DNA of 64,000 nucleotides. It comes from Actinomycetota bacterium. GTDB lineage: Bacteria > Actinomycetota > Geothermincolia > Geothermincolales > RBG-13-55-18. The stretch is taken from positions 1 to 64,000 of the forward strand of contig JACIXC010000002.1 in assembly GCA_014360655.1 (NCBI GenBank), in the 5' to 3' direction. The position numbers and the translations under genes are program-made. Positions 7,401 to 25,413 of this stretch are shown here, piece by piece (position 1 is the stretch's first letter; every line of letters starts with the position of its first letter). The notes under the pieces are model-generated. The model searched no databases. It was not told where the DNA came from and worked only from the letters and a program-made list of their open reading frames with translations.

Positions 7401-7585
7401 GGTGCGCCGGCGGAGGCCGGGGACACCGCAAATCCGCGATGAGGACTCACCGGGGACTCCAGGCCGAGCAGGCTGAGAGCCTTCGGTTAAATATATGCCC
7501 TAAATCCGGTGCGGGAGCCGGAAAGAAAGCGAGGGCATGTTTTCGAAGAGCCCGTCACTTGAGAGAAGAGGAAAGGAGTTGCAGC
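7401..7585 (+). promoter_or_regulatory. Structured 5' leader of fhs
   Basis: Between the promoter and the fhs ATG there are at least two stable nested hairpins: CCGA-GGCT/AGCC-TCGG at about 7464-7487, and an ATGCCCT/AGGGCAT outer stem (7495-7501 with 7532-7538) holding an inner TCCGG/CCGGA stem. The leader does not match the conserved cores of the THF, TPP, cobalamin, SAM or c-di-GMP-I riboswitches that I know, so regulation by this leader is inference only. Confidence 0.4.
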
Positions 7586-9289
7586 ATGGTTCCGAGTGAC
7601 CTGGAGATCGCTCAAGCGGCAGAGCTCCTCCCCATCGTGGAGATCGCCAGGAAGATGGGGCTGGAGGAGGACGAGATCGAGCTGTACGGCAAATACAAGG
7701 CGAAGATCAACTTCGAGCAGGTCCTGGAGAGGCTGAAGGACCGCCCCAACGGGAAGTATATCGACGTCACCGCCATCACCCCAACCCCCCTGGGCGAGGG
7801 CAAGACGGTCACCTCCATCGGCATGACCGAATCCCTGGCCAAGATCGGCAAGAACGTCTGCCTCACGCTGCGTGAGCCTTCCCTGGGGCCGGTGTTCGGC
7901 ATCAAGGGAGGCGCGGCGGGAGGCGGTTACTCGCAGGTGGTGCCCATGGAGGACCTCAACCTCCATTTCACCGGGGACATCCACGCCGTGGGAGCGGCCA
8001 ACAACCTGCTGGCGGCGATGATCGACACCAGCATCCTCCTGGGCAACCCCCTGAACATCGACCCCCTCACCATTTCCTGGAGGAGGGTGGTGGACATCAG
8101 CGACCGCGCCCTGCGCGACATCGTCATCGGCCTCGGCGGCAGGGAGAACGGCTATCCCCGCCAGACCGGGTACGACATCACCGTGGCCTCGGAGGTCATG
8201 GCCATCCTGGCCCTGGCTACCAGCCTTAAGGACCTCAGGGAGCGGCTGGGGCGCATCGTGGTCGCCTATACCTACGAAGGCAAGCCGGTGACCGCGGAGG
8301 ACCTCAAGGCCGCCGGCGCCATGACCGTTCTCCTCAAGGAGGCCCTCAAGCCCAACCTCATACAGACCCTGGAGCATAACCCCTGCATCATGCACGCCGG
8401 CCCCTTCGCCAACATCGCGCACGGGAACAATTCCATCGTGGCCGACCTGGTGGCCCTGAAGTGCGCCGATTACGTGGTCACGGAGTCCGGTTTCGGTGCC
8501 GACATGGGGGCGGAGAAGATGATGAACATCAAGTGCCGCTACTCGGGCGTCACCCCGGATTGCGTGGTCATCACCACCACCATCCGCGCTCTCAAGATGC
8601 ACGGCGGCGCCTTCGAGGCCCGTCCCGGCAAGCCCCTCGACGAGGAGCTGGTGAAGAAGGAGAACATGCCCGCCCTCGAGGAAGGCGCGAGCAACCTCAT
8701 CAAGCAGATCGAGAACATGAAGCTCTTCGGCGTGCCGGTGGTGGTGACCATCAACAGGCGCGTGACGGACACCGACAAGGAGATAGAGCTGGTGAAGAAG
8801 CTGGCCGAGGGCGCCGGCGTGGTGGCCTGCGTGCCCATCGAGGTCTGGGCCAAGGGCGGCGAGGGCGGCAAGGAGGCCGCCCAGGCCATCGTGGAGGCAT
8901 GCGAGCAGCCCAAGGACTTCAAGTTCCTCTACGAGCTGGACTGGTCCATCAAGGAGAAGATCGAGGCCATCGCCACCAAGATCTACGGCGCGGACGGGGT
9001 GGACTACAGCCCCCTGGCGGAGCAGAAGATCAAGCAGTACACCGAGGCGGGCTACGACAAGCTCCCCATCTGCATGGCCAAGACCCACCTGTCGCTCTCC
9101 CATGACCCCAACCTGAAGGGCGCGCCCAAGGGCTTCCGCCTGCCGGTGGTGGATATCAGGCCTTCCATCGGCGCCGGTTTCCTCTACCCGCTGTGCGGCG
9201 CCATGCGCACTATGCCCGGGCTTCCCAGCCGCCCGGCGGCGGTTGACGTGGACATCGACGAGAACGGCAGGACCATGGGACTGTTCTGA
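7586..9289 (+). CDS. fhs: Formate--tetrahydrofolate ligase
   Basis: Fhs joins formate to tetrahydrofolate with ATP to give 10-formyl-THF, the entry step of the methyl branch of the Wood-Ljungdahl pathway, in the cytoplasm. The 567-residue length is normal (usually 555-565). The nucleotide-binding motif TPTPLGEGKTVTS is at about residues 64-76, and the family signatures KGGAAGGGYSQV and FANIAHGNNSI are present. The ATG at 7586 has GGAG seven bases upstream; the frame stays open upstream through the leader but shows no similarity there. It is the first gene of the operon behind the promoter at 7366. Confidence 0.97.
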   Translation: MVPSDLEIAQAAELLPIVEIARKMGLEEDEIELYGKYKAKINFEQVLERLKDRPNGKYIDVTAITPTPLGEGKTVTSIGMTESLAKIGKNVCLTLREPSLGPVFGIKGGAAGGGYSQVVPMEDLNLHFTGDIHAVGAANNLLAAMIDTSILLGNPLNIDPLTISWRRVVDISDRALRDIVIGLGGRENGYPRQTGYDITVASEVMAILALATSLKDLRERLGRIVVAYTYEGKPVTAEDLKAAGAMTVLLKEALKPNLIQTLEHNPCIMHAGPFANIAHGNNSIVADLVALKCADYVVTESGFGADMGAEKMMNIKCRYSGVTPDCVVITTTIRALKMHGGAFEARPGKPLDEELVKKENMPALEEGASNLIKQIENMKLFGVPVVVTINRRVTDTDKEIELVKKLAEGAGVVACVPIEVWAKGGEGGKEAAQAIVEACEQPKDFKFLYELDWSIKEKIEAIATKIYGADGVDYSPLAEQKIKQYTEAGYDKLPICMAKTHLSLSHDPNLKGAPKGFRLPVVDIRPSIGAGFLYPLCGAMRTMPGLPSRPAAVDVDIDENGRTMGLF

Positions 9290-9390: not shown

Positions 9391-11376
9391 TTGCAAGAGA
9401 GCTGCCGGGTCCTGTTTCTGCCTGATAACCGCTACATCGTGGTTCCCAGGGGCGAGAACCTCCTCAAGGCGGCCATGGACGCCGACGTGCACGTGAACGC
9501 CTCCTGCGGCGGTTCCGGTTCATGCGGCAAGTGCCGCGTCTTGATCGAGGAAGGGGAGGTGGAGCGGGAACCCAACCCAAAGCTCTCCGAGGAGGACATC
9601 TCGAGGGGATACGCACTGGCCTGCCAGACCAGCGTCCTCTCCGACCTGAAGGTAAACGTCCCCATCGAGTCGCGCATCGGGGACAGGAGGATCTTCGAGC
9701 GCAAGGAGCCGGAGCCGGCGCACGGCCACCTGCTCTCCGCGGCCGACTGGGAGAAGCGGCTCCCCCACTGGGAGCTCAATCCCTCCACGCGCAAGATACA
9801 CCTGGTCCTCGCGGAACCGACACTCGACGACAACGTGAGCGACGCCGAGAGGGTGAAGCGTGGGTTATCCGTGGAGGCTGGACTGCGCGACGTGGTCATC
9901 GATTACCCGGTGCTGCAGCGCCTTCCAAACATGCTGCGGCAGAGCGACTGGGACATAACCGTGACCGTCCTGGACAGCGGGGAGGAACTGCGAGCCGTGC
10001 GCATCGAGCAGGGAGACACCTCCGGGCGCCAGTCCGCGATCGCCATCGACGTGGGGACCACCACCATATCCGCCGAGCTCATCGACCTGCAGACGGGCGA
10101 GGTCACCGCCCGGGCTTCCGACTACAACGCGCAGGTGGCCTTCGGCGAGGACGTCATCACCCGCATAATCTACGCCACGCGCGGCACGGGGCTGGCCAAG
10201 CTGCAATCGGTGGTGGTGGGCACCATCTGGAACCTCATCAAGAGCCTGGTGGAACAGGCGGGGATAGAGTACTGCGACATCACCCACCTGGTGGTTTCCG
10301 GGAACACCACCATGACCCACCTCCTCCTGGGCCTCAATCCCCGCTATATACGCGAGGAACCCTACATCCCCTCGGCGACCTTCTTCCCCTGGATAAAGTG
10401 CAGCGACATCGGGCTGCGCATCGCGGCGGGGGTCTATCTTTACGCTATACCCTGCGTGGCATCTTACGTGGGCGGGGATATCGTCGCCGGTATGCTCGCC
10501 GCGGGTATCTTCAACTCCGACAAGCTCACCCTGTATATCGACATCGGCACCAACGGTGAGATGGTCCTGGGAAACCGCGAATGGATGCTCTCCTGCTCCT
10601 GCTCGGCGGGACCTGCCTTCGAGGGGGGCGGCGTCAAGCACGGCATGCGGGCAACCCGCGGGGCCATCGAGCAGGTGCGCATCAACAAGGTGAACTACGA
10701 GCCCATGATCATCACCGTGGGCCACCGCAAGCCCATCGGCATCTGCGGGTCCGGGCTCATCGATGCCCTCTCCGAGATGTTCCTCACCGGCATCATCAAC
10801 GAGAAGGGGAAGATAAACACCGATCTCCCCACGGACAGGGTGCGGGCCACGGAAAGCGGGGCCGAATACGTGCTGGTGCGGGCGGAGGACTCGGCGACAA
10901 GGCGGGACATCGTCATCACCGAGGTGGACATAGACAACCTCATGCGCGCCAAGGCGGCGGTTTACGCGGGCATAGAGATACTCCTCTCCTCCGTGGACAT
11001 GGACGTCTCCATGATCGACGAGCTCCTCATCGCCGGGGCCTTCGGCCGCTACCTGGAGGTGGACAAGGCGGTGACCATCGGCTTGTTGCCGGACATCGGG
11101 TACGACAAGATGAAATTCGTGGGCAATGGGTCCCTCCTGGGGGCTCACCTCGCCGCGCTCTCCAAGGACATGCTCAACAAGGCCAACGAGATCGCCCGCC
11201 AGATGACCTATCTCGAGCTCTCCATGAACCCGGCCTTCATGGAGCATTACCTGTCGGCCCTCTTCTTTCCCCATACCGACCTGGACGCCTTTCCCTCGGT
11301 GCGCGAAAGGCTGGAGAGCTACCGCGACGAGCAGCGTTGGGCCAGGGAAGCGGCCGCGGGAGGGGAGGTGGGCTGA
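9391..11376 (+). CDS. acsV: RACo: ATP-dependent reductive activator of the corrinoid iron-sulfur protein
   Basis: RACo-type proteins couple ATP hydrolysis to reduction of the inactive Co(II) state of the corrinoid protein back to Co(I). The 661-residue product has an N-terminal plant-type [2Fe-2S] ferredoxin domain with Cys39, Cys45, Cys48 and Cys78, a linker, and a C-terminal ASKHA ATPase domain (DUF4445) with phosphate-binding loops AIDVGTTTISAEL (about 211-223) and IDIGTNGEMVLG (about 385). The start is TTG at 9391 with GGGAGG seven bases upstream; no closer ATG fits. The gene sits between fhs and a CooC-like ATPase gene, which begins directly after its stop. A methyltransferase activator (RamA-like) is the alternative; the corrinoid protein genes in the same operon favour RACo. 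Confidence 0.92.
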   Translation: MQESCRVLFLPDNRYIVVPRGENLLKAAMDADVHVNASCGGSGSCGKCRVLIEEGEVEREPNPKLSEEDISRGYALACQTSVLSDLKVNVPIESRIGDRRIFERKEPEPAHGHLLSAADWEKRLPHWELNPSTRKIHLVLAEPTLDDNVSDAERVKRGLSVEAGLRDVVIDYPVLQRLPNMLRQSDWDITVTVLDSGEELRAVRIEQGDTSGRQSAIAIDVGTTTISAELIDLQTGEVTARASDYNAQVAFGEDVITRIIYATRGTGLAKLQSVVVGTIWNLIKSLVEQAGIEYCDITHLVVSGNTTMTHLLLGLNPRYIREEPYIPSATFFPWIKCSDIGLRIAAGVYLYAIPCVASYVGGDIVAGMLAAGIFNSDKLTLYIDIGTNGEMVLGNREWMLSCSCSAGPAFEGGGVKHGMRATRGAIEQVRINKVNYEPMIITVGHRKPIGICGSGLIDALSEMFLTGIINEKGKINTDLPTDRVRATESGAEYVLVRAEDSATRRDIVITEVDIDNLMRAKAAVYAGIEILLSSVDMDVSMIDELLIAGAFGRYLEVDKAVTIGLLPDIGYDKMKFVGNGSLLGAHLAALSKDMLNKANEIARQMTYLELSMNPAFMEHYLSALFFPHTDLDAFPSVRERLESYRDEQRWAREAAAGGEVG

Positions 11377-12150: not shown

Positions 12151-12250
12151 TGACGGGCGCGATAATGCGCTGGTGGTATTTGCCGGAAAAGAGGTGGAAT
12201 TGCAGGGGAATTGGTGAGATAATCAGGTTTTGGACCGGGGAGGTCTGACG

Positions 12251-12877
12251 ATGTACGTGGAAAAGCCCATGATCGTATTTCTGGACAGGCTCGCCTCCAG
12301 GTCACCGGAGCCGGGCGGCGGCGCCGTTTCCGCCCTCACGGGAGCGCTGGGAGCCGCTCTGGTCTCCATGGTAGGCAACCTCACCCTGGGCAAGGAGAAG
12401 TACGCGGACGTGCAGGACCAGGTGGAGGAGCTCCTCAAGTCATCCGAAAAACTCCGAGACGAGCTGCAGGGACTCATCCAGAAGGACACCGAGGTCTACG
12501 CGGAGGTCTCCGCCGCTTACAAGATGCCACGCGAGAGCGAGGAGGAGAAGGCGGCGCGTGCGGCGAGCATCCAGAAAGCCCTGAAGACCGCCACCGAGGT
12601 GCCCTTCGAGATCGCCGAGAAATGTCTCGAGGTGGCGCGCATATCGCTGACGGCGGCGGAGATCGGCAACGTGGGGGCGGTGAGCGACGCCGGCGTGGCG
12701 GCGCTCCTGGCCGAGGCGGCGGCGCAGAGCGCGGCGCTCAACGTGAAGATCAACGTCAACAGCATCGAGGACCGCGACTTCGCGGAGGCGAAATGGTCGC
12801 GTGTGCAGGAGATCCTCGAGGAGGCGGCGCTCCTGCGGGACCGCGTGGTGAAGCTTACCTACGAAAAGCTGGGATGA
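12251..12877 (+). CDS. fchA: Methenyltetrahydrofolate cyclohydrolase (FchA/cyclodeaminase family)
   Basis: The 208-residue helical protein belongs to the FTCD_C family. FchA hydrates 5,10-methenyl-THF and 10-formyl-THF interconversion. The folate-site region LASRSPEPGGGAVSALTGAL (about 12-31) is the family signature, and the length matches stand-alone FchA of acetogens and purinolytic clostridia. The ATG at 12251 follows GGGAGG. The next gene, folD, has lost the residues that give bifunctional FolD its own cyclohydrolase activity, so FchA is probably the working cyclohydrolase of the pathway. Confidence 0.92.
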   Translation: MYVEKPMIVFLDRLASRSPEPGGGAVSALTGALGAALVSMVGNLTLGKEKYADVQDQVEELLKSSEKLRDELQGLIQKDTEVYAEVSAAYKMPRESEEEKAARAASIQKALKTATEVPFEIAEKCLEVARISLTAAEIGNVGAVSDAGVAALLAEAAAQSAALNVKINVNSIEDRDFAEAKWSRVQEILEEAALLRDRVVKLTYEKLG

Positions 12878-13026: not shown

Positions 13027-13965
13027 ATGACGGTGGTCATCGATTGTGTCGCGATCGGCGATGAGCTGATGAAGGAGATCGTTGCCGAGACTGAAGCCCT
13101 CAAGGCAAAGGGCATCACCCCCGGCATCGCCACCCTCCTGGTGGGGGACGATTTCGGGGCGCGCATGTACCGCGGGCAGGTGGAGAAGTTCTGCGAGGAG
13201 GCGGGCTTCAACTACATCAACGAGAACCCGCCCGCCGACGTGAGCGAGGAAGAGGTGGTGGAGATCGTGAAGCGGCTCAACGCCGACAAGGCGGTGAGCG
13301 GCATCCTTCCCCTGCGCCCCTTTCCCGAGCACATCTCGGACAGCGCGGTTATCAATTCCATCGACGTGAACAAGGATATCGACTGCTTCCACCCCTTCAA
13401 CATGGGCAAGCTGGCGCTGGGCGAGCCCACCTTCCCGCCAGCGACCCCCTCGGCGGTGGTGGAGATCCTCGACCGCTACGCCCGCGAGTACGAGAAGATG
13501 GATCCCAAGGACTTCTACGAGGGGGCGGAGATAGTGGTGGTGGGCCACTCCAACATCGTGGGAAAGCCGGTGGCCTTCCTCATGCTCAACCGCAACGCCA
13601 CCACCACCGTGTGCCATGTCTTCACCAGCATGAAGGGCAACCTGGAAAAGCATACCAAGGGCGCCGACATCCTCATCGTCGCCGCGGGGAAGGCCGACCT
13701 CATCGGTCCCGACCAGGTGAAGGAGGGCGCCATCGTGGTCGACGTGGGCATCAACCGCGTCAAGGTGCTGGATGAGAAGGGCGAGCCCGTGCTCAACGAG
13801 AAGGGAAAGCCCAAGACCAAGACGGTGGGAGACGTCTCCTTCGACGCTGTCAAGGACATGACCAAGGCCATCACGCCCGTGCCCGGCGGCGTGGGCTCGG
13901 TGACCAACCGCATGCTAATGAAGAACGCCCTGCGCGCCTGCAGGATGCAGCACGGGCTGGAATGA
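13027..13965 (+). CDS. folD: Methylenetetrahydrofolate dehydrogenase (FolD family, cyclohydrolase site lost)
   Basis: This 312-residue FolD-family enzyme should oxidise or form 5,10-methylene-THF. The NAD(P) motif VVVGHSNIVGKPVA is at about residues 177-190 and the C-terminal signature TPVPGGVGSVT is intact. In bifunctional E. coli FolD the cyclohydrolase residues are Tyr50, Lys54, Gln98 and Asp121. Here Tyr48 and Asp119 are kept, but the Lys position is Val52 (MYRGQVEKF) and the Gln position is Leu96 (GILPLRPFPEH). I infer a monofunctional dehydrogenase, as in yeast Mtd1 and some acetogens. It has about 20-30 residues more than typical FolD, mostly inserted before the nucleotide-binding domain and near LDEKGEPVLNEKG. 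Start ATG 13027 with an AAAGGAG site. Confidence 0.93.
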   Translation: MTVVIDCVAIGDELMKEIVAETEALKAKGITPGIATLLVGDDFGARMYRGQVEKFCEEAGFNYINENPPADVSEEEVVEIVKRLNADKAVSGILPLRPFPEHISDSAVINSIDVNKDIDCFHPFNMGKLALGEPTFPPATPSAVVEILDRYAREYEKMDPKDFYEGAEIVVVGHSNIVGKPVAFLMLNRNATTTVCHVFTSMKGNLEKHTKGADILIVAAGKADLIGPDQVKEGAIVVDVGINRVKVLDEKGEPVLNEKGKPKTKTVGDVSFDAVKDMTKAITPVPGGVGSVTNRMLMKNALRACRMQHGLE

Positions 13966-13988: not shown

Positions 13989-14042
13989 CGAGAGGAATAA
14001 TATAGAAAAGGCGGTAAAGGGACATCGGAAAGGAGAATGGAA

Positions 14043-14984
14043 ATGGCGTTCAATCTACCGACGGAAACGGCCAAGGGCAAGATCCGCGAGGTAGAGCTCG
14101 GTAGTGGCGACAAGGCCAGGAAGGTGGGAGGAGAATCCTGCCTGCCCTTCTACCTCTGGGAGGGCGAGATGCCCAACAAGCCAATGGTGGCCGCCGAGGT
14201 TATGGACGAGGTGGGCGAGCTGGTGCCGGCGCTGGAGAAAGCCCTGGGCGAGGTGAAGAGCGACCCCGTCGCCTGGGCGAAGAAGGCGGTGGAGGAATGG
14301 GGCGCCGACGCCATCTTCCTCCTGCTCACCTCCACCGACCCCAAGGCCACCAACGCCCCCGCGGACCAGGCGGCGGAGACGGTGCTAAAGGTGGAGGAAG
14401 CGGTGAAGGCCCCCGTGATCGTCTACGGTACGGAGGACCTGGAGAAGGACGCAGAGATAGCCAGGGTGGTGGCCACCAAGGCCGAGGGAAGGAACCTGCT
14501 GATAGGTCCCGCCAAGGAGGACAACTTCAAGAAGGTCGGGGCGCCGGCCATCGGGTACAAGCAGACGGTAGCCGGCATGACCCCCATCGACGTCAACCTG
14601 GCCAAGCAGCTGAACATCCTCCTCACCAACCTGGGCATGGAGGCGGAGAAGCTGGTCATCGACCCCACCACCGGAGCCCTGGGATACGGCCTGGAGTACA
14701 CCTACTCGGTGATGGAGCGGTTGAAGATAGCCGGCCTCTTCCAGGACGATTCCATGACCCAGATGCCCATGCTGGCCAACATCGGTTTCCAGGCCTGGAA
14801 GACCAAGGAGGCCAAGAGCCCCGAGGAGGAGTACCCCGAGTGGGGCGACGCGGAGAAGCGCGGCATCATGTGGGAGACGGTCACCGCGGTGGCGCTGCTG
14901 CTGGCGGGCGCGGACATCCTGGTGTTGCGCCATCCCGAATCCATAAGACTGGTGAAACAGTTGATCGCCGACCTTTCCGGGTAG
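14043..14984 (+). CDS. acsD: Corrinoid iron-sulfur protein, small (delta) subunit
   Basis: AcsD is the smaller TIM-barrel subunit of the corrinoid iron-sulfur protein that carries the methyl group from methyl-THF to acetyl-CoA synthase. The 313 residues match bacterial AcsD in length. Recognisable blocks include WGADAIFLLLTSTDP, PVIVYGTEDLEKDAEIARVV, the conserved IGYKQTVAGMTPIDVNLAKQ and LVIDPTTGALGYGLEYTYSV segments. The second of two ATGs (14043) is preferred because AGGAG lies seven bases upstream of it, while the first (14037) is only one base from that site. It precedes CODH, ACS and AcsC genes. Confidence 0.95.
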   Translation: MAFNLPTETAKGKIREVELGSGDKARKVGGESCLPFYLWEGEMPNKPMVAAEVMDEVGELVPALEKALGEVKSDPVAWAKKAVEEWGADAIFLLLTSTDPKATNAPADQAAETVLKVEEAVKAPVIVYGTEDLEKDAEIARVVATKAEGRNLLIGPAKEDNFKKVGAPAIGYKQTVAGMTPIDVNLAKQLNILLTNLGMEAEKLVIDPTTGALGYGLEYTYSVMERLKIAGLFQDDSMTQMPMLANIGFQAWKTKEAKSPEEEYPEWGDAEKRGIMWETVTAVALLLAGADILVLRHPESIRLVKQLIADLSG

Positions 14985-15110
14985 GCTTTGCATAAAGGGC
15001 CGGCTTTCGAACCGGAAAACACGTTGCGGGACAGGCTCGGAAGGGACGGAAAGCCGGATTTGGAGAAGGTCCGCGAAGGACCCGAAAGTTCCACAGGAGG
15101 AATAAGAGAC

Positions 15111-17048
15111 ATGGCAGAGATCGAGGAAATGTCAGCGTGCGAGGCCACGCTGGAGATGCTGAGGCAGGCCAAGGAGGAGGGCCAGGAAACCGCCTTCGAC
15201 CGCGTGGAGCAGCAGAAGGGCTGCGCCTTCGGCGAGGCGGGGAGCTGCTGCCGCATCTGTAACATGGGCCCCTGCCGCATCAACCCCAAGAAGCCGGACG
15301 AGAGCCGCGGGGTGTGCGGCGCCGACATGGACACCATCGTGGCCCGCAACTTCGCCCGCATGGTAGCCGGGGGGGCTTCCGCCCACTCCGACCACGGGCG
15401 AGCGGTGGCCGAGACCCTGGTCATGGCAGCCAGGGGGGAGGCCACCGACTACGAGATCAAGGACCGCATCAAGCTGCTCGAGGTGGCCGCCGACCTGGGC
15501 GTGGAGGTGGGCGACCGCGAGATCAACGACATCGCCCTGGAAGTGGGCGAGCGCTGCCTGGCCATGTTCGGGCAGCAGGAGGGCGAGCTTCCCTTCGCCC
15601 TCAGGGCCCCCGAGCCGCGCAAGGAGATCTGGCGCCAGCTGGGCGTCTTCCCCCGCGGCATCGACCGCGAGGTGGTGGAGCTCATGCACCGCACCCACAT
15701 GGGCGTGGACCAGGACTACGAGAACATCCTCATGGCCTGCGCCCGCACCGCCCTGGCCGACGGCTGGGGAGGCTCCATGATCGGGACGGAGCTGCAGGAC
15801 ATCCTCTTCCAGACCCCGGTACCCATCGAGGCCAAGATCAACCTGGGGGTGCTCAAGGAGGACGAGGTGAACATCATCGTCCACGGCCACGAGCCCATCC
15901 TCTCCGAGATGATCGTGCTCGCCGCAAACCTGCCGGAGATGCAGGAAAAGGCCAAGAGCGTGGGGGCCAAGGGGATCAACCTGGCCGGCATCTGCTGCAC
16001 GGCCAACGAGATCCTCACGCGGCACGGCATACCGGTAGCGGGCAACGTCCTTCAGCAGGAGCTGGCCCTGCTCACCGGCGCGGTGGAGGCCATGGTGGTG
16101 GACGTGCAGTGCATCTACCAGGGGGTCGGGCAGATCGCCAACTGTATACACACCGACATAATCACCACCTCCCCCAAGGCCAAGATGCCCTACGCTCGCC
16201 ATATCGAGTTCCACGAGGACAAGGCGCTGGACATCGCCAAGGAGATAGTCTCCTCGGCCATCGATAACTTCCCGAAGCGGGGAAGGGTCAGTATCCCCGA
16301 CGTCAGGGAATCCCTCATCGCCGGTTTCAACCACGAGTACATCAACTACATGCTGGGAGGGCGTTTCCGCGCCTCCTACCGGCCGCTCAACGACGGCGTC
16401 ATCGACGGGCGCATCCGCGGCGTTGTGGGCGTGGTGGGCTGCAACAACCCCCGCGTGAAGCACGACGACATCCACGTGCGCGTGGTGCGCGAGCTCATCG
16501 CCAACGGCTGCCTGGTGGTCATGACCGGTTGCGCCGCCCAGTCGGTGGCCAAGGCCGGGCTCATGCTCCCAGAGGTGGCGCGCGACATCTGCCCGCAGGG
16601 GCTGTGGGAGATCTGCGAGGCGGTGGGCATCCCGCCGGTGCTGCACTGCGGTTCCTGCGTTGACAACAGCCGCATCCTCATCGCCTGCACGGCCATGGTG
16701 CACGAGGGCGGCCTGGGGGACGACATAAGCGAGCTCCCCGTGGCCGGGTGCGCGCCGGAGTGGATGAGCGAGAAGGCCATCTCCATCGGCGAGTACTTCG
16801 TGGCCTCCGGCGTGTATACCGTGTTCGGGGTCAAGTGGCCCACCCTGGGTTCCAAGAACGTCACCGACTTCCTCTTCCAGAAGTACGGTGAGCTCTTCAA
16901 GAACACCTGGGACTTCGAGCCCGACCCCGAGAAGATGGTCGGGAAGATCCTGAGCCACATCGACAGCAAGCGCGAGGCCCTGGGCATCATGGCCAAGCGC
17001 GAAAGGGTGCTCTTCGACATGGCCATGAGAAGGGAGTTGGAGATCTGA
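15111..17048 (+). CDS. acsA: Ni-containing carbon monoxide dehydrogenase, catalytic subunit
   Basis: The 645-residue CODH reduces CO2 to CO for acetyl-CoA synthesis. N-terminal cysteines for the D- and B-clusters lie in KGCAFGEAGSCCRICNMGPC (about residues 34-53). C-cluster ligands are visible as the HGHEP histidine segment (about residues 258-260), GICCTANEILTRHG, VGCNNPR, TGCAAQS and HCGSCVDNSR. The length suits bacterial CooS/AcsA. The ATG at 15111 has an ACAGGAGG site; an upstream in-frame extension lacks similarity. The stop overlaps the acsB ATG by one base, and pairing with AcsB indicates the CODH/ACS complex rather than a stand-alone CooS. Confidence 0.97.
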   Translation: MAEIEEMSACEATLEMLRQAKEEGQETAFDRVEQQKGCAFGEAGSCCRICNMGPCRINPKKPDESRGVCGADMDTIVARNFARMVAGGASAHSDHGRAVAETLVMAARGEATDYEIKDRIKLLEVAADLGVEVGDREINDIALEVGERCLAMFGQQEGELPFALRAPEPRKEIWRQLGVFPRGIDREVVELMHRTHMGVDQDYENILMACARTALADGWGGSMIGTELQDILFQTPVPIEAKINLGVLKEDEVNIIVHGHEPILSEMIVLAANLPEMQEKAKSVGAKGINLAGICCTANEILTRHGIPVAGNVLQQELALLTGAVEAMVVDVQCIYQGVGQIANCIHTDIITTSPKAKMPYARHIEFHEDKALDIAKEIVSSAIDNFPKRGRVSIPDVRESLIAGFNHEYINYMLGGRFRASYRPLNDGVIDGRIRGVVGVVGCNNPRVKHDDIHVRVVRELIANGCLVVMTGCAAQSVAKAGLMLPEVARDICPQGLWEICEAVGIPPVLHCGSCVDNSRILIACTAMVHEGGLGDDISELPVAGCAPEWMSEKAISIGEYFVASGVYTVFGVKWPTLGSKNVTDFLFQKYGELFKNTWDFEPDPEKMVGKILSHIDSKREALGIMAKRERVLFDMAMRRELEI

Positions 17049-19228
17049 TGAGTAGGATAATCGCAACCGCAGCCATCAAGGGAGCCCACAAGGAGGTGGC
17101 GGAAGCCGAGCGCATGCTCGCCGAGACCAAGGAGGCCGTCGGAGCCACCGCGAAGGTGGAGTTCCCCAACACCGGGTACTACCTGCCCATCATCTACGCC
17201 CTCACCGGCATCGCCGTGGAGAAGCTGGAGGACATGGACCAGGTGATCCAGTACGCCAAGGACCTCCTGCCCCCCATCCCCAGGCAGAACCACTGGGTGC
17301 CCTACCTGGGGCACACCCTGGACGCCGGCGTGGCCACTCTCTTCGCCGGAGAGATAATCGAGGGCTGCAAGTACGCCACCAACCCGCCGGTGGATGACCT
17401 CTGGCTGGGGGCGGCGGACGACGTCATCATGCGCGAGCGCGGCGTGGAGTTCGTGGACGGCACCGCCCCCGGTTTCTGCGCGCTGGTGGGTCGCGCCTCC
17501 ACCCCGGAGATGGCGGACAGGATCGTGGTGGAGCTCCTGGAGAAGAACCTCTACGTGTGGATCTCCGGCCACGTGGACGGCCTCTCCATAGCCGAGCAGC
17601 TCCAGCAGGTGGACCGCCAGCTGGGATGGGACACGCGCATCGTGCCCTACGGCAAGGAGATGACCTCGGCGGTGTACTCGCTGGGGTTCGCCGCCCGCGC
17701 CGCCATGTCCTTCGGCGGGGCCCAGCCGGGCGACTTCCGCAAGGTGCTGCGCTACAACAAGAACCGCATCTTCGCCTTCGTGCTGGCCCTGGACTACGTG
17801 GACGAGCAGAAGTACGCCTACGCGGCGGGGGCCATCAACTACGGGTTCCCCACCATCGCCAACACGCCCATCCCGGACATCCTCCCCACCGGCGTGTGCA
17901 CCTACGAGCACGTGGTGGGCGGCGTGCCGGAGGAGGAGATCGTCCAGAAGTGCGTGGAGGTGCGCGGCCTCAAGATCCAGATCACCGAGATCCCCATCCC
18001 CATGGCCTACGGCCCCGCCTTCGAGGGCGAGGTCATCCGCAAGGACGACATGTACCTGCAGTTCGGCGGGAACATCACCCCCGCCTTCGAGTTCGTGAAG
18101 ATGAGGGAGATGGACGAGGTCACCGACGGCAAGATCGAGGTGGTGGGCCCGGAGATCGACGACGTCAACGAGGGCGACGCCCTGCCACTGGGCATCGTGG
18201 TGGAGGTGGCGGGACGCAAGATGCAGGAGGACTTCGAGTCCATCCTGGAGCGCCAGATCCATCACCTCATCAACGGTGCCGAGGGCATCTGGCACATGGG
18301 GCAGCGCGACATCGTGTGGACGCGCATCAGCAAGAAGGCCCAGGCCAAGGGGTTCAAGATCCGCCACTACGGCGAGATCATCCACGCCAAGCTGCTCAAC
18401 GACTTCCCCTCCATCGTGGACAAGGTGCAGGTGACCATCTATACCAACATGGAGGACGTGGAGAAGTGGCTGGCCGTAGCGAGGCAGGCCTACCGCTACC
18501 GCGACGAGAAGACGGCGGGCATGACCGACGAGTCTGTGGACACCTTCTATTCCTGCACCCTGTGCCAGTCCTTCGCCCCCACCCACGTGTGCATCATCTC
18601 TCCGGAGAGGCTGGGATTGTGCGGGGCCTACAACTGGCTGGACGGCAAGGCGGCCTACGAGATCGACCCCACCGGGCCCAACCAGCCGGTGAAGAAGGGC
18701 GACTGCACCGATGAGGTGAAGGGCGTTTGGCCGGCCATCAACGAGTTCGTCAAGGAGAAGTCGGGGGGCAACACCCAGAGCGTCACCATGTACTCCATGA
18801 TGGAGGACCCCATGACCTCCTGCGGGTGCTTCGAGTGCATCGTGGCCTTCCTGCCCATGTGCAACGGGGTGATGATCGTCAACCGCGAGCACAAGGGCGA
18901 GACCCCGTGCGGCATGACCTTCTCCACCCTGGCCAACTCGGTGGGCGGCGGCCAGCAGACGCCGGGCTTCATAGGCATCGGGAAGGTGTACATCACCTCC
19001 AAGAAGTTCATCTCCGCGGACGGCGGTTTCCAGCGCATCGTGTGGATGCCCAAGGAGCTCAAGGAGACCCTCAAGGAGCAGCTCCAGAAGCGCTGCGAGG
19101 AGATCGGCGACCCCGATTTCATCAACAAGATCGCCGACGAGGACGTGGGCACAACCGAGGAGGAGATCCTTCCCTGGCTGGAGGAGAAGGGCCATCCCGC
19201 CCTGACCATGGAGCCCATGCTCATGTAG
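17048..19228 (+). CDS. acsB: Acetyl-CoA synthase (CODH/ACS alpha subunit)
   Basis: AcsB condenses CO, the corrinoid-bound methyl group and CoA. At 726 residues it is full-length bacterial type (M. thermoacetica about 729), so it retains the N-terminal domain that docks to CODH. The A-cluster ligands are complete: Cys503, Cys506, Cys515 and Cys525 for the [4Fe-4S] cubane (CTLCQSFAPTHVC...LGLCGAYN), with Cys592-Gly-Cys594 for the distal nickel site; each is three residues below the M. thermoacetica numbering. It starts on the last base of the CODH stop codon. A strong GC hairpin follows it before acsC. Confidence 0.98.
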   Translation: MSRIIATAAIKGAHKEVAEAERMLAETKEAVGATAKVEFPNTGYYLPIIYALTGIAVEKLEDMDQVIQYAKDLLPPIPRQNHWVPYLGHTLDAGVATLFAGEIIEGCKYATNPPVDDLWLGAADDVIMRERGVEFVDGTAPGFCALVGRASTPEMADRIVVELLEKNLYVWISGHVDGLSIAEQLQQVDRQLGWDTRIVPYGKEMTSAVYSLGFAARAAMSFGGAQPGDFRKVLRYNKNRIFAFVLALDYVDEQKYAYAAGAINYGFPTIANTPIPDILPTGVCTYEHVVGGVPEEEIVQKCVEVRGLKIQITEIPIPMAYGPAFEGEVIRKDDMYLQFGGNITPAFEFVKMREMDEVTDGKIEVVGPEIDDVNEGDALPLGIVVEVAGRKMQEDFESILERQIHHLINGAEGIWHMGQRDIVWTRISKKAQAKGFKIRHYGEIIHAKLLNDFPSIVDKVQVTIYTNMEDVEKWLAVARQAYRYRDEKTAGMTDESVDTFYSCTLCQSFAPTHVCIISPERLGLCGAYNWLDGKAAYEIDPTGPNQPVKKGDCTDEVKGVWPAINEFVKEKSGGNTQSVTMYSMMEDPMTSCGCFECIVAFLPMCNGVMIVNREHKGETPCGMTFSTLANSVGGGQQTPGFIGIGKVYITSKKFISADGGFQRIVWMPKELKETLKEQLQKRCEEIGDPDFINKIADEDVGTTEEEILPWLEEKGHPALTMEPMLM

Positions 19229-19316: not shown

Positions 19317-20666
19317 ATGGGACTTTCGGGCTTGGATATCTTCAAGAAGCTGCCCAAGACCAACTGCAAGGAATGCGGGTTCCCGACCTGCCTGGCCTTC
19401 GCCATGAAGCTGGCGGCGGGACAGGCGAACCTCGACGACTGCCCCTACGTGACGGATGAGGTACGGGCCGAGCTGGCCGAGGCGGCTGCACCTCCCATCC
19501 GGGGTGTCACCGTCGGGGTGGGGGACGAAGCCTTCAAGGTGGGTGAGGAGCTGGTGCTCTTCCGTCACGAGAAGACCTTCTTCAATCCCGCGGTCCTGGG
19601 CGTGCTGGTGAGCGACGACATGGACGACGCCAGGGTGGATGATCTGCTCAAGCAGGCCAAGGAATGCGAGCACGAGCGGGTAGGCGTGATACTCAAGGTG
19701 GGGACCATCGCCGTGAAGTCCGCCTCGGGCGACGCCGGGAAGTTCAAGGCGCTGGTGGAGAAGGTGAAGGGTGCCGTGAACAAGCCCCTCATCCTGATGG
19801 CCGAGGACGTCGAGGTCATGAAGGCGGGGGTGGAGGCTGCCGGAGACTCCCGTCCCCTGCTCTACGCCGCCACCGAGGCCAACGTGGACGCCATGGGCGG
19901 GCTGGCCAAGGAGAAGGACCTGCCCCTGGCGGTGAAGGCCGCCGACCTGGACAAGCTGGCCGAGCTATCGGAGAAGCTGACCGGCATGGGCCTCAAGGAC
20001 CTGGTGCTCGACCCGGCGCCGCGCAAGCCGGGCGAGACCTTCAAGGACCTGGTGGCCATCCGCCGGGCGGCCCTCAACGAGAAGTTCGCCCCCTTCGGGT
20101 TCCCCACCATCACCTTCCCCTGCGAGGAGACGGACGACGAGCTCTACGAGACGGCCCTGGCGGCCATGTACATCTGCAAGTACGGCGGCATCGTCATCCT
20201 CTCCCACGCCGAGCAGTGGAGGATGTACCCCCTGCTGGTGCTGGTGCTCAACATCTACACCGACCCCCAGCGCCCCATGGCCGTGGACTCCAAGTTCTAC
20301 GAGATCGGGGCCCCGGACGAGAACAGCCCGGTGCTGGTGACCACCAACTTCTCCCTCACCTACTTCATCGTCTCCGGCGAGATCGAGGGGAGCAAGATCC
20401 CCGCCTGGCTGGGCGTGGTGGACGTGGACGGCCAGTCGGTGCTCACCGCTTGGGCGGCGGGCAAGTTCGTTCCCGAGACCATCGCCAAGTTCATCAACAC
20501 CTCGGGGATCGCGGATAAGGTGAAGCACCGCAAGCTTATCATCCCCGGTTACGTGGCCCAGATCTCCGGCGAGCTGGAGGAGGAGCTGCCCGACTGGGAG
20601 ATCGTCATAGGCACCAGGGAGGCCGCGGACATCCCCGCCTTCCTGCGCCAGTTCTCCACCTCCTGA
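19317..20666 (+). CDS. acsC: Corrinoid iron-sulfur protein, large (gamma) subunit
   Basis: AcsC holds the [4Fe-4S] cluster that reduces the cobalt and the B12-binding C-terminal domain. The 449-residue product has the N-terminal cluster cysteines in TNCKECGFPTCLAFAMKL (Cys19, 22, 27) plus Cys in LDDCPY, then a TIM barrel and the C-terminal corrinoid-binding region (about 330-449, containing SPVLVTTNFSLTYFIVSGEI). Ribosome site GAAGGAG precedes ATG 19317. It pairs with AcsD encoded 5 kb upstream; in between lie the CODH and ACS genes. Confidence 0.97.
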   Translation: MGLSGLDIFKKLPKTNCKECGFPTCLAFAMKLAAGQANLDDCPYVTDEVRAELAEAAAPPIRGVTVGVGDEAFKVGEELVLFRHEKTFFNPAVLGVLVSDDMDDARVDDLLKQAKECEHERVGVILKVGTIAVKSASGDAGKFKALVEKVKGAVNKPLILMAEDVEVMKAGVEAAGDSRPLLYAATEANVDAMGGLAKEKDLPLAVKAADLDKLAELSEKLTGMGLKDLVLDPAPRKPGETFKDLVAIRRAALNEKFAPFGFPTITFPCEETDDELYETALAAMYICKYGGIVILSHAEQWRMYPLLVLVLNIYTDPQRPMAVDSKFYEIGAPDENSPVLVTTNFSLTYFIVSGEIEGSKIPAWLGVVDVDGQSVLTAWAAGKFVPETIAKFINTSGIADKVKHRKLIIPGYVAQISGELEEELPDWEIVIGTREAADIPAFLRQFSTS

Positions 20667-20753: not shown

Positions 20754-21419
20754 ATGATCATCACCACATCGAAGCCCTTTGAGGAGGTGCTCCAGGAGCT
20801 CGAGGGCGAGGAGAAGGTCTTCATCGTGGGCTGCGGCTCCTGCGCCACCACCTGCGAGACGGGAGGCGAGGAACAGGTCGCCGAGATGAAGGCCAAGCTG
20901 GAGGCCGAGGGCAAGACGGTCACCGGCACCGTGGTCTACGAGGAGGTATGCCACGAGCTGAACACCAAGCGCAAGTTCCGGGAGAACAAGGAGGCGGTGG
21001 AGGCCGCCGAGGGTTTCCTGGTCATGTGCTGCGGCGCCGGAGTGCAGTCGGTGCGCGAGGCCACCGAGAAGTCGGTGCACCCCGCCTGCAACACCGTCTT
21101 CCTGGGCAACATCCTGCGCCAGGGCCAGTTCACGGAGAAATGCTCCCTCTGCGGCGAATGCGTGCTGGAGGACTTCGGGGCCATCTGCCCCGTGACCCGC
21201 TGCCACAAGGGCATCCTCAACGGGCCCTGCGGGGGCACCGACGAGGGCAAGTGCGAGACCGACAAGGAGAAGGACTGCGGCTGGACCCTCATCTACAACC
21301 AGCTGGAGAAGCTGGGGAAGCTGGACCGCTTCCGCAAGATCTACGGCCTCAAGAACTGGCAGGCGAACATGAAGCCCGGCCGCGTGGTCTTCGAGAAGAA
21401 GGGCGGAGGGGGTGAGTGA
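20754..21419 (+). CDS. metV: MetV: zinc/cysteine-rich partner of methylenetetrahydrofolate reductase
   Basis: The 221-residue protein matches the MTHFR_C domain (MetV), the partner that forms a complex with MetF in acetogens such as Moorella and Acetobacterium. It is rich in cysteine, including GCGSCATTC (near 25-33), MCCGAG, and a C-terminal CSLCGEC...CPVTRCHKG motif that can bind an iron-sulfur cluster or zinc. The ATG at 20754 has GGAGGAGG upstream. The gene ends inside the start region of metF, so the two are translated together. No electron-transfer partner (RnfC2 or HdrA) is beside it. Confidence 0.9.
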   Translation: MIITTSKPFEEVLQELEGEEKVFIVGCGSCATTCETGGEEQVAEMKAKLEAEGKTVTGTVVYEEVCHELNTKRKFRENKEAVEAAEGFLVMCCGAGVQSVREATEKSVHPACNTVFLGNILRQGQFTEKCSLCGECVLEDFGAICPVTRCHKGILNGPCGGTDEGKCETDKEKDCGWTLIYNQLEKLGKLDRFRKIYGLKNWQANMKPGRVVFEKKGGGGE

Positions 21420-21420
21420 G

Positions 21421-22350
21421 ATGACCGTCCTCATCAAGGAGCACGTGAAGCCGGCCATCCAGGAGATCCTGGAAGCAGGGAAGTTCCTGGTCACCGGGGA
21501 GATCGGGCCCCCCAAGGGCACGGACATCGACGAGATGATCGAGCACATCCACCTGCTCAAGGACCGCGTGCATGCCATGAACATCACCGACAACCAGTCC
21601 TCGGTGATGCGCTACCCCTCGCTGGCCACGGCCATCCTCATCAAGGAGCTGGGGGGCGAGCCCAACCTGCAGGTGACCTGCCGGGACCGCAACCGCCTGG
21701 CCATCGAGGCCGACCTGCTATTCGCCTACACGCGCGGCATCCGCAGCGTGCTCTGCCTCACCGGGGATTCCATCCCCGTGGGGGACCACAAGGAGGCCAA
21801 GGCGGTCTTCGACTGCGAGTCGGTGCAGCTCCTTCAGATCATCCGCAACATGGAGGAGGGGCGCGACTCGGGCGGCAACGAGCTCAAGGGCGGCGTGTCC
21901 TTCTTCAAGGGAGCCATCGTCACCCCCGAGGCCATCCCCATCGAGCCCCAGATGCTCAAGTTCGAGAAGAAGATCGAGGCGGGAGCCCAGTGGTTCCAGA
22001 CCCAGGCCGTGTACGACATGGACAACTTCAAGCGCTTCATGGAGAAGGCGCGCAAGATCAGCGACAAGGTGTACATATGCTGCGGCCTGGTGCTCCTTAC
22101 CAGCCCCGGGCAGATCAAGTACATGAACGCCAACGTCCCCGGCGTCTTCGTGCCCGAGGACCTGGCCCGGGAGATGGAGGACGCTCCCAAGGAGGAGAGG
22201 CTCGCCACCGGCATCCGCATCATGGCCCGCCAGATACGCCAGTGCATCGACGAGAAGCTGTGCGACGGCGTGCACATCATGGCCATCGGCAAGGAGGACG
22301 TGGTTCCCCGCATCCTCGAGGAAGCCGAGGTGGACATCACCAAGATGTAG
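21421..22350 (+). CDS. metF: 5,10-methylenetetrahydrofolate reductase
   Basis: MetF reduces methylene-THF to methyl-THF. The 309-residue TIM barrel keeps the family features: GEIGPPKGTD near the catalytic Glu, MNITDNQSSVMRY, LQVTCRDRNR and VLCLTGDSIPVGDH for FAD and folate binding, and GAQWFQTQAVYD. The ATG at 21421 suits the GGAGGG site; a GTG nine bases earlier overlaps that site. Because no NAD(P)H-specific partner is fused, the electron donor probably comes through MetV, possibly from ferredoxin or an unlinked module. A hairpin follows at 22441. Confidence 0.95.
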   Translation: MTVLIKEHVKPAIQEILEAGKFLVTGEIGPPKGTDIDEMIEHIHLLKDRVHAMNITDNQSSVMRYPSLATAILIKELGGEPNLQVTCRDRNRLAIEADLLFAYTRGIRSVLCLTGDSIPVGDHKEAKAVFDCESVQLLQIIRNMEEGRDSGGNELKGGVSFFKGAIVTPEAIPIEPQMLKFEKKIEAGAQWFQTQAVYDMDNFKRFMEKARKISDKVYICCGLVLLTSPGQIKYMNANVPGVFVPEDLAREMEDAPKEERLATGIRIMARQIRQCIDEKLCDGVHIMAIGKEDVVPRILEEAEVDITKM

Positions 22351-22440
22351 CGGGCTCGGGGTCGGAACCGGCGCTGCAGGCGAGCGACGGGACAACCACG
22401 TACCTCGAGCATACTCGCGGTAGGATTGCAGGATAAGGGG

Positions 22441-22474
22441 GGTCGGCGGGGTGAGGCACGGAGCCCTGCCGACC
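22441..22474 (+). terminator. Hairpin after metF
   Basis: GGTCGGC (22441-22447) pairs with GCCGACC (22468-22474), extended by GGG/CCC with one bulged T. No T-run follows. It may lower read-through into the methionine synthase gene. Confidence 0.4.
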
Positions 22475-22509
22475 CTCGCAGGGCATGCGTCGAGCATGGG
22501 TGGTGTTGA

Positions 22510-23544
22510 ATGGAGGACTGGGAGCCCGCCCTTACGGCGACCGCCATAGGCAGTCTTCCGCACACCGATGCGGAAAAGGCCTGCGCCATGACGTTGCAGC
22601 ACCTTACCGAGGCCCCCGTCTGGCCGCAGCTACCGCGGCTCAGCTTCCGGGAGAACATGTACGCGCAGTACAGCGAGGGCCTGCCGGGAGTGGTGGTGGA
22701 CGAGGAGAGGCGCAAGGTCTTCTGCGATACGGAGCGGGACCTCATCCCGGAGATGGAGGTGGTCTACCAGGCTTACCTGGACGGCGACATCTCCATGGCG
22801 CGCATCGGCGAGGAATACGCCTCGGGGCTGTACCGCATGGCGGAGCGGCTGGCGCAGGAGGAAAGGAGCTACCGCTTGCTGAAGGGGCAGGTGACGGGCC
22901 CGGTGAGCTTCGGGCTCACCGTGCTGGACGGGAAAAACCGGCCCATCCTCTATAACGACCAACTGGCGGAGGTCATGGTGAGGTTGCTCAACCTCAAAGC
23001 GCGCTGGATGGAGGGCTTCCTGCGCGGGACGGGCAGGGCGCGCGGGGTGCTCGTCTTCTTCGACGAGCCCTACCTGGTCTCCGTGGGCTCGGCGCTGGTG
23101 AGCGTGGACCGCGGGCGGGTGGTGGATTCCCTGCGCCTCTGCGGAGAGGGGCTCACCTGCCTGACGGGCGTGCACTGCTGCGGCAACACCGACTGGACGT
23201 ATCTCTTCGAGGCGGGCGTGGATGTGGTGAGCTTCGACGCCTACGGGTACATGGACAGCATGGCCCTCTACCCGGAGGAGCTGTGCCGCTTCCTGGAAGG
23301 GGGAGGGGCGCTGGCCTGGGGCCTGGTGCCCAACGACGCCCGGGTGGACGAGGAGACGGCGGATTCCCTGGCGAGGCGTTTCGAGGAGGGCGTGGCCCTG
23401 CTCGCCTCGCGCGGAGTGGATGCCGACCTGCTGAGGGAAAGGGCGCTCCTCACCCCCTCGTGCGGACTCGAGGGGGTGAGCGAGGCGCAGGCGGAGAAGG
23501 CTTATCGCCTGACCTCGGAACTCTCGAGCCTGTTACGAGGATGA
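22510..23544 (+). CDS. Core methionine synthase (MetE C-terminal domain type)
   Basis: The 344-residue protein is related only to the catalytic C-terminal barrel of cobalamin-independent methionine synthase and lacks its N-terminal folate half (full MetE is about 750 residues). Probable zinc ligands are the His and Cys in GVHCCGNTDW (about residue 218-227), a Glu in the barrel and Cys in LTPSCGLEG (near 315). VFFDEPYLV matches the homocysteine-binding DEP motif. Core enzymes of this kind take methyl groups from corrinoid proteins or methylcobalamin instead of methyl-THF. It lies between metF and acsE in the corrinoid operon, so the AcsCD protein is the likely methyl donor. The start at 22510 lacks a strong ribosome site. 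A uroporphyrinogen-decarboxylase-like methyltransferase is the alternative. Confidence 0.8.
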   Translation: MEDWEPALTATAIGSLPHTDAEKACAMTLQHLTEAPVWPQLPRLSFRENMYAQYSEGLPGVVVDEERRKVFCDTERDLIPEMEVVYQAYLDGDISMARIGEEYASGLYRMAERLAQEERSYRLLKGQVTGPVSFGLTVLDGKNRPILYNDQLAEVMVRLLNLKARWMEGFLRGTGRARGVLVFFDEPYLVSVGSALVSVDRGRVVDSLRLCGEGLTCLTGVHCCGNTDWTYLFEAGVDVVSFDAYGYMDSMALYPEELCRFLEGGGALAWGLVPNDARVDEETADSLARRFEEGVALLASRGVDADLLRERALLTPSCGLEGVSEAQAEKAYRLTSELSSLLRG

Positions 23545-23563
23545 GGTCTTGCGCGGGAAGGCG

Positions 23564-24472
23564 ATGACCGGGAAAGGCGGAAGAGGAACGGTGAAGACGA
23601 CGACCGGGGCAGAGAGCCGCCACGAGACGCGTCTCCCCCGCTGGCTGCACCGCCCCATCCGGGCGGGAAGGGAGATGCGCGAGGTGGAGAGGACTTTGCG
23701 AGAGCGTGGACTCCACACCGTGTGCGAGAGCGCCAAGTGCCCCAATCGCATGGAATGTTTTTCCAGGCGCACCGCCACCTTCATGATCCTGGGGGACGTC
23801 TGCACCCGCAGGTGCGCCTTCTGCGGGGTGGGCAAGGGCGAGCCGCGGGCGGTGGACGGGGAGGAGCCGGCGCGGGTGGCGGCGGCGGCTGCATCGTTGG
23901 GGCTGCGACACGTGGTGGTGACCAGCGTGACCCGTGACGACCTCCCGGACGGAGGGGCATCCGTGTTCGCCGCCACCATAAGGGAGATACGCGCCCGCCT
24001 GCCGCAGTCCACGGTGGAGGTGCTGGTGCCGGATTTCCGTGGGGACGAGGAGGCGTTGCGGGAAGTCGTGGCGGAGAAGCCGAACGTCCTCAACCACAAC
24101 CTGGAAACGGTTAAGGAGCTCTACGCACGGGTGAGGCCCGGTGCGGATTACCGGCGCTCCCTGCGCCTGCTGGAGGCGGCGAAGAAAATGGACGGGGATA
24201 TGAAGACGAAGAGCGGCCTCATGGTGGGTTTGGGAGAAACGCGGAAGCAGCTGCAGGCAGCCTTCCGTGACCTCTCGGGGGTGGGCTGTGATATGCTCAC
24301 CATCGGGCAGTACCTGCGCCCGGGCAGGGAGCAGCTGAAGGTGGAAAGGTTTCTCTCCCCGCAAGAGTTCGAGGAGCTGGGGGAGGAGGCCAGGAAGGCG
24401 GGCATCCCGCTGGTGGCCTCGGCACCCTTCGTGCGCAGCTCCTACCGGGCGAGGGAACTCCTGCTCGCATAG
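23564..24472 (+). CDS. lipA: Lipoyl synthase
   Basis: LipA inserts two sulfurs into protein-bound octanoyl groups. The roughly 302-residue radical-SAM enzyme has the auxiliary-cluster motif CESAKCPNRMEC, the SAM-cluster motif CTRRCAFC, and the C-terminal VRSSYRA whose serine ligates the auxiliary cluster. ATG 23564 is taken as start; a TTG at 23549 and a GTG at 23591 (with AGAGG upstream) are alternatives. It lies inside the Wood-Ljungdahl operon, whose own enzymes need no lipoate, which points to a lipoyl-GcvH based glycine system; gcvH and lpd are at 51-53 kb. Confidence 0.95.
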   Translation: MTGKGGRGTVKTTTGAESRHETRLPRWLHRPIRAGREMREVERTLRERGLHTVCESAKCPNRMECFSRRTATFMILGDVCTRRCAFCGVGKGEPRAVDGEEPARVAAAAASLGLRHVVVTSVTRDDLPDGGASVFAATIREIRARLPQSTVEVLVPDFRGDEEALREVVAEKPNVLNHNLETVKELYARVRPGADYRRSLRLLEAAKKMDGDMKTKSGLMVGLGETRKQLQAAFRDLSGVGCDMLTIGQYLRPGREQLKVERFLSPQEFEELGEEARKAGIPLVASAPFVRSSYRARELLLA

Positions 24473-24525: not shown

Positions 24526-25413
24526 ATGCTGATCATCGGGGAAAAGGTCAACGTGATGATGAAGAAGATCGGCCAGGCCATGAAGGAATACGACAAGAAG
24601 CCCATCCAGGAGATGGCGTTGCTCCAGGTGGAAGGCGGGGCCAACTGGCTGGACATCAACCTGGGGCCGGCGACCAAGGAGGGGCCAGAGCGCATGCGTT
24701 TCGTGGTCCAGGCGGTGCAGGAGGTGACCGACGTGCCCCTGGCCCTCGACACCATGAACATCGATGCCATGAAGGCGGGCCTGGAGGTCGTCGAGGGCAG
24801 GGAGGTCATGATCAACTCCATCTCCTCGCAGCCGGAACGCATCGAGAGGCTCATGCCCATGGCCGTGGAGCACAACGCCTGGGTGGTCGGGCTGGTGCTC
24901 AACGCGCAGGGGAACGTGCCCCGCGACGCCAACGAGAGGGTGGAGGTGGCCTACAACATCATCATGGCCGCCCAGGAGTACGGGATACCACTGGACAAGC
25001 TGCTCATCGACCCCATCGTGCTCCCCATCAGCGTGACCCAGGACCAGGTGCACGCCCTCATCGACGCCATGGACATGCTGCAGGGGGTCTTCGCGGAGTT
25101 CGATCCCCAGCCGGGCACGGTGGTGGGTCTCTCCAACGTCTCCAACAGCGTCCCCGACGAGTCGCTCTGCAGCCTGCTCAACCGCACCCTCCTGGCCGTG
25201 CTCATGGTCAAGGGACTGACGGCGGCCATCGTGGACCCCAACGACGAGGCCCTAATGGGCGTGGTCAACAAGAACGAGGAATACCAGATAGTGGAAAAGA
25301 TAGTAAACGGGGAGCCCGTGGACGAGTCCGACCCCACGGCGATAAAGCTCCTCAAGACCTGGAGGGTGCTTACCGAGGAAACCCTTTACGCCCACTCCTA
25401 CCTGGAGCTGTAA
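24526..25413 (+). CDS. acsE: Methyltetrahydrofolate:corrinoid iron-sulfur protein methyltransferase
   Basis: AcsE moves the methyl group from methyl-THF to Co(I) of the AcsCD protein. The 295-residue protein has the pterin-binding TIM barrel: IIGEKVNVMMKK at the start, GGANWLDINLGPA, VPLALDTMN (catalytic-site Asp), MINSIS with the conserved Asn, and LLIDPIVLPI. The family length is about 262-270, so there is a modest C-terminal extension (after about residue 265, ending in HSYLEL). The ATG at 24526 follows GGAGGAGG. It is separated from the acs subunit genes by metV, metF, the core methionine synthase and lipA. Confidence 0.95.
   Translation: MLIIGEKVNVMMKKIGQAMKEYDKKPIQEMALLQVEGGANWLDINLGPATKEGPERMRFVVQAVQEVTDVPLALDTMNIDAMKAGLEVVEGREVMINSISSQPERIERLMPMAVEHNAWVVGLVLNAQGNVPRDANERVEVAYNIIMAAQEYGIPLDKLLIDPIVLPISVTQDQVHALIDAMDMLQGVFAEFDPQPGTVVGLSNVSNSVPDESLCSLLNRTLLAVLMVKGLTAAIVDPNDEALMGVVNKNEEYQIVEKIVNGEPVDESDPTAIKLLKTWRVLTEETLYAHSYLEL

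Follow-up and report, generated by a model that had tools for sequence, protein, structure and literature searches.

A probable MesB-type core methionine synthase encoded in the Wood-Ljungdahl operon of an actinobacterium

The 64,000-nucleotide stretch of DNA analysed here (the window) carries an open reading frame of 344 amino acids at 22510-23544 on the + strand, with an ATG at 22510 and a stop codon ending at 23544. This gene very probably encodes MesB, a core (folate-independent) methionine synthase, whose methyl donor in vivo would be AcsCD, the CoFeSP encoded in the same, presumably co-transcribed, operon. Computation shows that the protein belongs to this family and keeps its catalytic residues, establishes the order of the genes, and finds in the genome neither MetH nor MetE nor a methyl-carrying corrinoid protein besides AcsCD. 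The frame is not a chance ORF, since its homologs are intact frames within the genus (84% identity) and within the family (64-74%).

The first-pass annotation had described a MetE-like protein without the folate-binding half. The second part of this description is correct: with 344 residues the protein has half the length of MetE and a single domain. The first part holds in profile and fold comparisons, which support kinship to MetE, but not in Pfam or NCBIfam, where the protein has no match.

The operon and its conservation

The genes listed here all lie on the + strand. First come fhs (formate-THF ligase, 7439..9289; NF010030 over cut-off), the gene of RACo/AcsV, the reductive activator of CoFeSP (9391..11376; RACo domains over cut-off, NF040756 with 748 bits under the cut-off of 800), and a cooC-like ATPase gene. 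These are followed by fchA (methenyl-THF cyclohydrolase, 12230..12877; PF04961, and NF045657 with 243 bits for a cut-off of 275) and folD (methylene-THF dehydrogenase/cyclohydrolase, 13027..13965; identified from the best of many FolD matches, none reaching its cut-off). Then come acsD (CoFeSP small subunit, 14037..14984; PF03599 and NF003376 over cut-off), cooS/acsA (CO dehydrogenase catalytic subunit, 14988..17048; TIGR01702 over cut-off), acsB (acetyl-CoA synthase, 17048..19228; NF040764 over cut-off) and acsC (19317..20666; NF003195 over cut-off), which encodes the large, corrinoid subunit of CoFeSP, the proposed methyl donor to MesB. A metV-like gene for a partner of MTHFR (20754..21419; PF12225) and metF (methylene-THF reductase, 21412..22350; PF02219) precede a gap of 159 nt, after which mesB (22510..23544; assigned by similarity to Dehalococcoides mccartyi 195 MesB and by aligned ligands) is separated by 4 nt from lipA (lipoyl synthase, 23549..24472; TIGR00510 over cut-off). 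Next is acsE (methyl-THF:CoFeSP methyltransferase, 24526..25413; PF00809, and as best NCBIfam model NF005719 with 231 bits for a cut-off of 259), and NuoE-, NuoF- and formate-dehydrogenase-like genes continue on the same strand.

The AcsCD genes thus share the operon, as had been claimed, with acsC, acsD, acsB and cooS all upstream on the same strand. The position assigned to the gene, between metF and acsE, is correct on the metF side; acsE does lie downstream, but lipA intervenes. The occurrence of lipA within a Wood-Ljungdahl operon, between mesB and acsE, is a separate observation, and several related genomes have lipA in the same place.

Folding of the metF-mesB gap (22351..22509, + strand) gives a GC-rich hairpin whose stem has about 15 pairs and whose energy is slightly below that of shuffled sequences, not clearly beyond them (z -1.5). 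There is no U tract at the hairpin. No riboswitch was found before mesB, an Rfam search of the gap being without match. The 159-nt gap and its hairpin count against co-transcription of metF and mesB, which we infer.

Gene order was compared in 80 named relatives with flanks of up to 8 kb, among many short contigs where absence is not always informative. The order acsC-metV-metF-mesB, usually then lipA and acsE, is found in Candidatus Solincola, Geothermincola, Geohydrothermomicrobium, Oleimmundimicrobium and further Actinomycetota; in Oleimmundimicrobium and two others metF and mesB are about 1.5-1.7 kb apart. A few other relatives have mesB beside cooS/acsB. Relatives of mesB are also common in Chloroflexota, mostly without acs genes next to them. 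An association of mesB with acsC/acsD was described earlier for some methanogens by Price et al. (PMC7857596).

Assignment to the MesB family

The window protein gave no match in Pfam, NCBIfam or a single-sequence PDB search. Since the MesB ortholog of D. mccartyi 195 also matches no Pfam family, the missing Pfam match reflects a gap in the library. A search of Dehalococcoidales genomes led to this ortholog, which was recognised in a complete genome by published residue positions, its length of 342 aa and its neighbours (PMC7857596, PMC7005905): His214, Cys216, Asp235, Cys311, Ser15, Trp69 and Asp177 stand at the published positions (PMC7857596), and MetK- and AHCY-like genes adjoin it, which agrees with the published core-MetE locus (PMC7857596, PMC7005905).

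The window protein shares 43% identity with it over 334 residues (BLASTP, 278 bits), and the HMMER score against it is 281.7 bits (genome G175). Membership in MesB has been limited to proteins scoring at least 130 bits against characterised MesB, about 29% identity (Price et al. 2021, PMC7857596). The window protein is well above this limit, the reference here being the strain 195 ortholog of the assayed CBDB1 enzyme. AcsC and AcsD, whose presence in the genome also belongs to the definition of MesB, are encoded in the same operon.

The residues expected to act in catalysis are conserved. His222, Cys224, Asp243 and Cys318 align with the zinc ligands His214, Cys216, Asp235 and Cys311 of strain 195, the H-to-D spacing being 21 as in MesB, and the homocysteine-binding Ser15 and Asp185 align with its Ser15 and Asp177. 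An alignment of 143 MesB-like proteins shows Asp185 and all four ligands of the zinc in every member (143/143) and Ser15 in 139. A Dehalococcoidales MesB-like protein (L182:5813-6844, genome G239) is without the GS(L/M)PH motif and reads MATAGDG in the region of the conserved FxDEP motif; it may be a homolog without catalytic function, as has been reported in Chloroflexales.

In a tree, the window protein is placed among MesB proteins. It stands with D. mccartyi MesB on one side of a branch that has a paralog clade on the other (support 98/97). Support for the wider MesB branch is modest (84/61).

Other methionine synthases and methyl donors in the genome

The genome is 99.96% complete, and neither metH nor a full metE was found elsewhere in it. 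It contains no PF02574 domain (MetH/BHMT homocysteine S-methyltransferase) and no PF01717 (MetE) match, and a search with the MetH model returned only AcsE and two small B12-binding proteins. Besides MesB, no recognisable methionine synthase is encoded in the genome except one divergent MesB relative. Of 59 genomes from the phylum, 36 contain a MesB-like gene and 21 contain PF02574 (S-methyl_trans), with both in a single genome (Fisher p 1e-11, kinship ignored). Among 36 further homolog-carrying genomes from many phyla, PF02574 is absent from 28. One genome of the same class (G018, 99% complete) has AcsCD and HcyBio, while MesB, MetH, S-methyl_trans and MetE are without match; this organism may be a methionine auxotroph or have a different, unrecognised methionine synthase.

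The donor of the methyl group could differ from CoFeSP even if the protein is a methionine synthase: another methyl-corrinoid protein, or free methylcobalamin, might serve. The assayed MesB, that of D. mccartyi CBDB1, was active with free methylcobalamin and its published activity does not concern CoFeSP (PMC7005905); MtbC/MetH-type corrinoid proteins are also present in most relatives of the family, and elsewhere mesB is often outside acs operons. Here, however, the gene sits within the CoFeSP operon, and PF02607 (B12-binding_2, the cap domain of methyl-carrying corrinoid proteins), which most relatives have, is absent from both this genome and its congener. The remaining B12-binding matches are mutase-type subunits: the two small B12-binding proteins, considered as alternative donors, were read by eye as methylmalonyl-CoA mutase small subunits from their sequences and a mutase-like neighbour in L003. 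With MtbC/MetH-type proteins undetected and the B12-binding matches of mutase type, AcsCD is the only methyl-carrying corrinoid protein found. This strengthens the link to CoFeSP and largely removes the ambiguity about the donor, so that a donor other than CoFeSP seems unlikely.

Concerning the substrate, an HcyBio protein (PF01837) is encoded on contig 6 (110047-111120), and true PF01053 sulfhydrylases seem absent from the genome. A homocysteine source is therefore plausible. HcyBio-family proteins also have other roles. The combination of HcyBio without true PF01053 enzymes suggests that actinobacteria of this class make homocysteine in the manner of methanogens.

A second MesB-like protein

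The divergent relative is encoded on contig 7 (39823-40806; L046:7788-8813) and is about 32% identical. It belongs to the separate clade mentioned above, present in Geothermincolaceae and Dehalococcoidales (L183). The paralog itself has Ile in place of Ser15, and all 16 proteins of its clade have Ile or Val there; the zinc site is kept in 14 of the 16, two having Asn for Asp. A neighbourhood search found no corrinoid gene beside the paralog. Within its family, the only recurring neighbours are an NAD(P)/FAD oxidoreductase, a Crp/Fnr-like regulator and some other, unrelated genes.

Methionine synthesis could depend mainly on this protein or be divided between it and the operon copy, and it is chiefly this protein that keeps us from regarding the operon copy as established to be the only methionine synthase. 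Another reading, in which the paralog is the housekeeping enzyme while a special task, such as the removal or return of CoFeSP methyl groups, falls to the operon copy, would fit the kept zinc site and the presence of the paralog both in G005, where AcsCD and the operon copy are undetected, and in the majority of the family's genomes. We consider it improbable: the homocysteine-binding Ser occurs in 0/16 members of the clade, which is moreover outside the clade with D. mccartyi MesB, and several MetH-less genomes carry only the operon-type copy. G005 was not retained as evidence for a division of roles, being a draft in which the acs contig may be missing. It is possible, though less likely than not, that the paralogs form a further undescribed core-MetE-like branch using another thiol or another source of methyl groups; the true methionine synthase would then be the operon copy.

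Fold and profile comparisons

The AlphaFold model of the operon-encoded protein has a pLDDT of 94.6. Foldseek found 3RPD (MesD) as its best match, then many MetE structures, with URO-D and the Methanosarcina mazei methyltransferase 4ay7 later. The family profile weakly matches 3RPD. In profile comparison, MetE was matched with E 3.6e-7 over 234 columns. PF01717 itself is weakly matched by two orthologs only (E 3e-4 to 5e-4, under cut-off); the window protein neither reaches its cut-off nor has the N-terminal folate half and is not a member of MetE.

The reading as a uroporphyrinogen-decarboxylase (URO-D)-type methyltransferase (MtaA/MtbA-like) acting on another thiol, suggested by the common superfamily, a URO-D profile match (E 8.4e-6 over 124 columns) and the later fold matches, is strongly disfavoured and highly improbable, since this identity comes second to MesD/MetE in both profile and fold, there is no match to PF01208 or any other URO-D family in Pfam, and the protein is, as seen above, 43% identical to MesB.

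Proposed mechanism

In the proposed pathway, formate would be converted to methyl-THF by Fhs, FchA, FolD and MetVF, and AcsE would move the methyl group from methyl-THF to AcsCD. Methyl-AcsCD could then supply both acetyl-CoA synthase (AcsB) and MesB. In MesB, a zinc ion held by His222, Cys224, Asp243 and Cys318 would bind homocysteine, with Ser15 and Asp185 holding its amino-acid end, and the methyl group would pass from the methyl-Co(III) of AcsCD to the zinc-bound homocysteine. Oxidised corrinoid would be reactivated by RACo. Jointly, AcsE, AcsCD and MesB would do the work that MetH performs as a single polypeptide through its modules for folate, B12 and homocysteine. The first-pass proposal that methionine synthesis is linked through a methyl-corrinoid to the Wood-Ljungdahl methyl branch is supported by the grouping with MesB, by the absence of MetH and MetE from the genome and by the lack of another methyl-carrying corrinoid protein, AcsCD being the probable donor.

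Comparison with known systems

The MesB family and the hypothesis of CoFeSP as its donor have already been published (Deobald 2020, Price 2021), and this donor is hypothetical for the type member too. New here are the metVF-acsE placement of the gene in these actinobacteria, the argument for the donor by elimination and the second MesB-like clade without Ser15. The results, from an unusually clear genomic context, back the published idea that MesB draws methyl groups from the corrinoid protein of the acetyl-CoA pathway. If this is true, one methyl carrier would be common to carbon fixation and methionine supply in these organisms.

The closest relatives are the MesB (core-MetE) proteins of D. 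mccartyi (cbdbA481 in CBDB1, DET0516 in strain 195), which share with the window protein a length of 342-344 aa, a zinc site of His-Cys-Asp-Cys with equal H-C-D spacing, the Ser15 and Asp residues, and the company of the Wood-Ljungdahl pathway. In D. mccartyi, however, mesB lies with metK/ahcY, and MetF and AcsE are absent, so that methyl groups must be drawn from acetyl-CoA (PMC7005905, PMC7857596); in the window, mesB forms part of the acs operon, MetVF and AcsE are present, and the forward methyl route is complete. MesD of Shewanella (3RPD), the best fold match, is likewise a core methionine synthase without folate domain, but it is only about 16% identical to the window protein and needs MesX and oxygen (PMC7857596). 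The C-terminal half of MetE (PF01717) has the same fold and zinc-site layout; the window protein differs in being without the N-terminal folate half, in falling below Pfam detection and in having Asp243 for Glu665. With MetH, AcsE, AcsCD and MesB in combination would have the same net reaction in common, whereas here these are separate proteins and the homocysteine module of MetH is of an unrelated family (PF02574). If the proposed reading is correct, the operon offers a natural set to reconstitute AcsE-AcsCD-MesB as a dispersed MetH.
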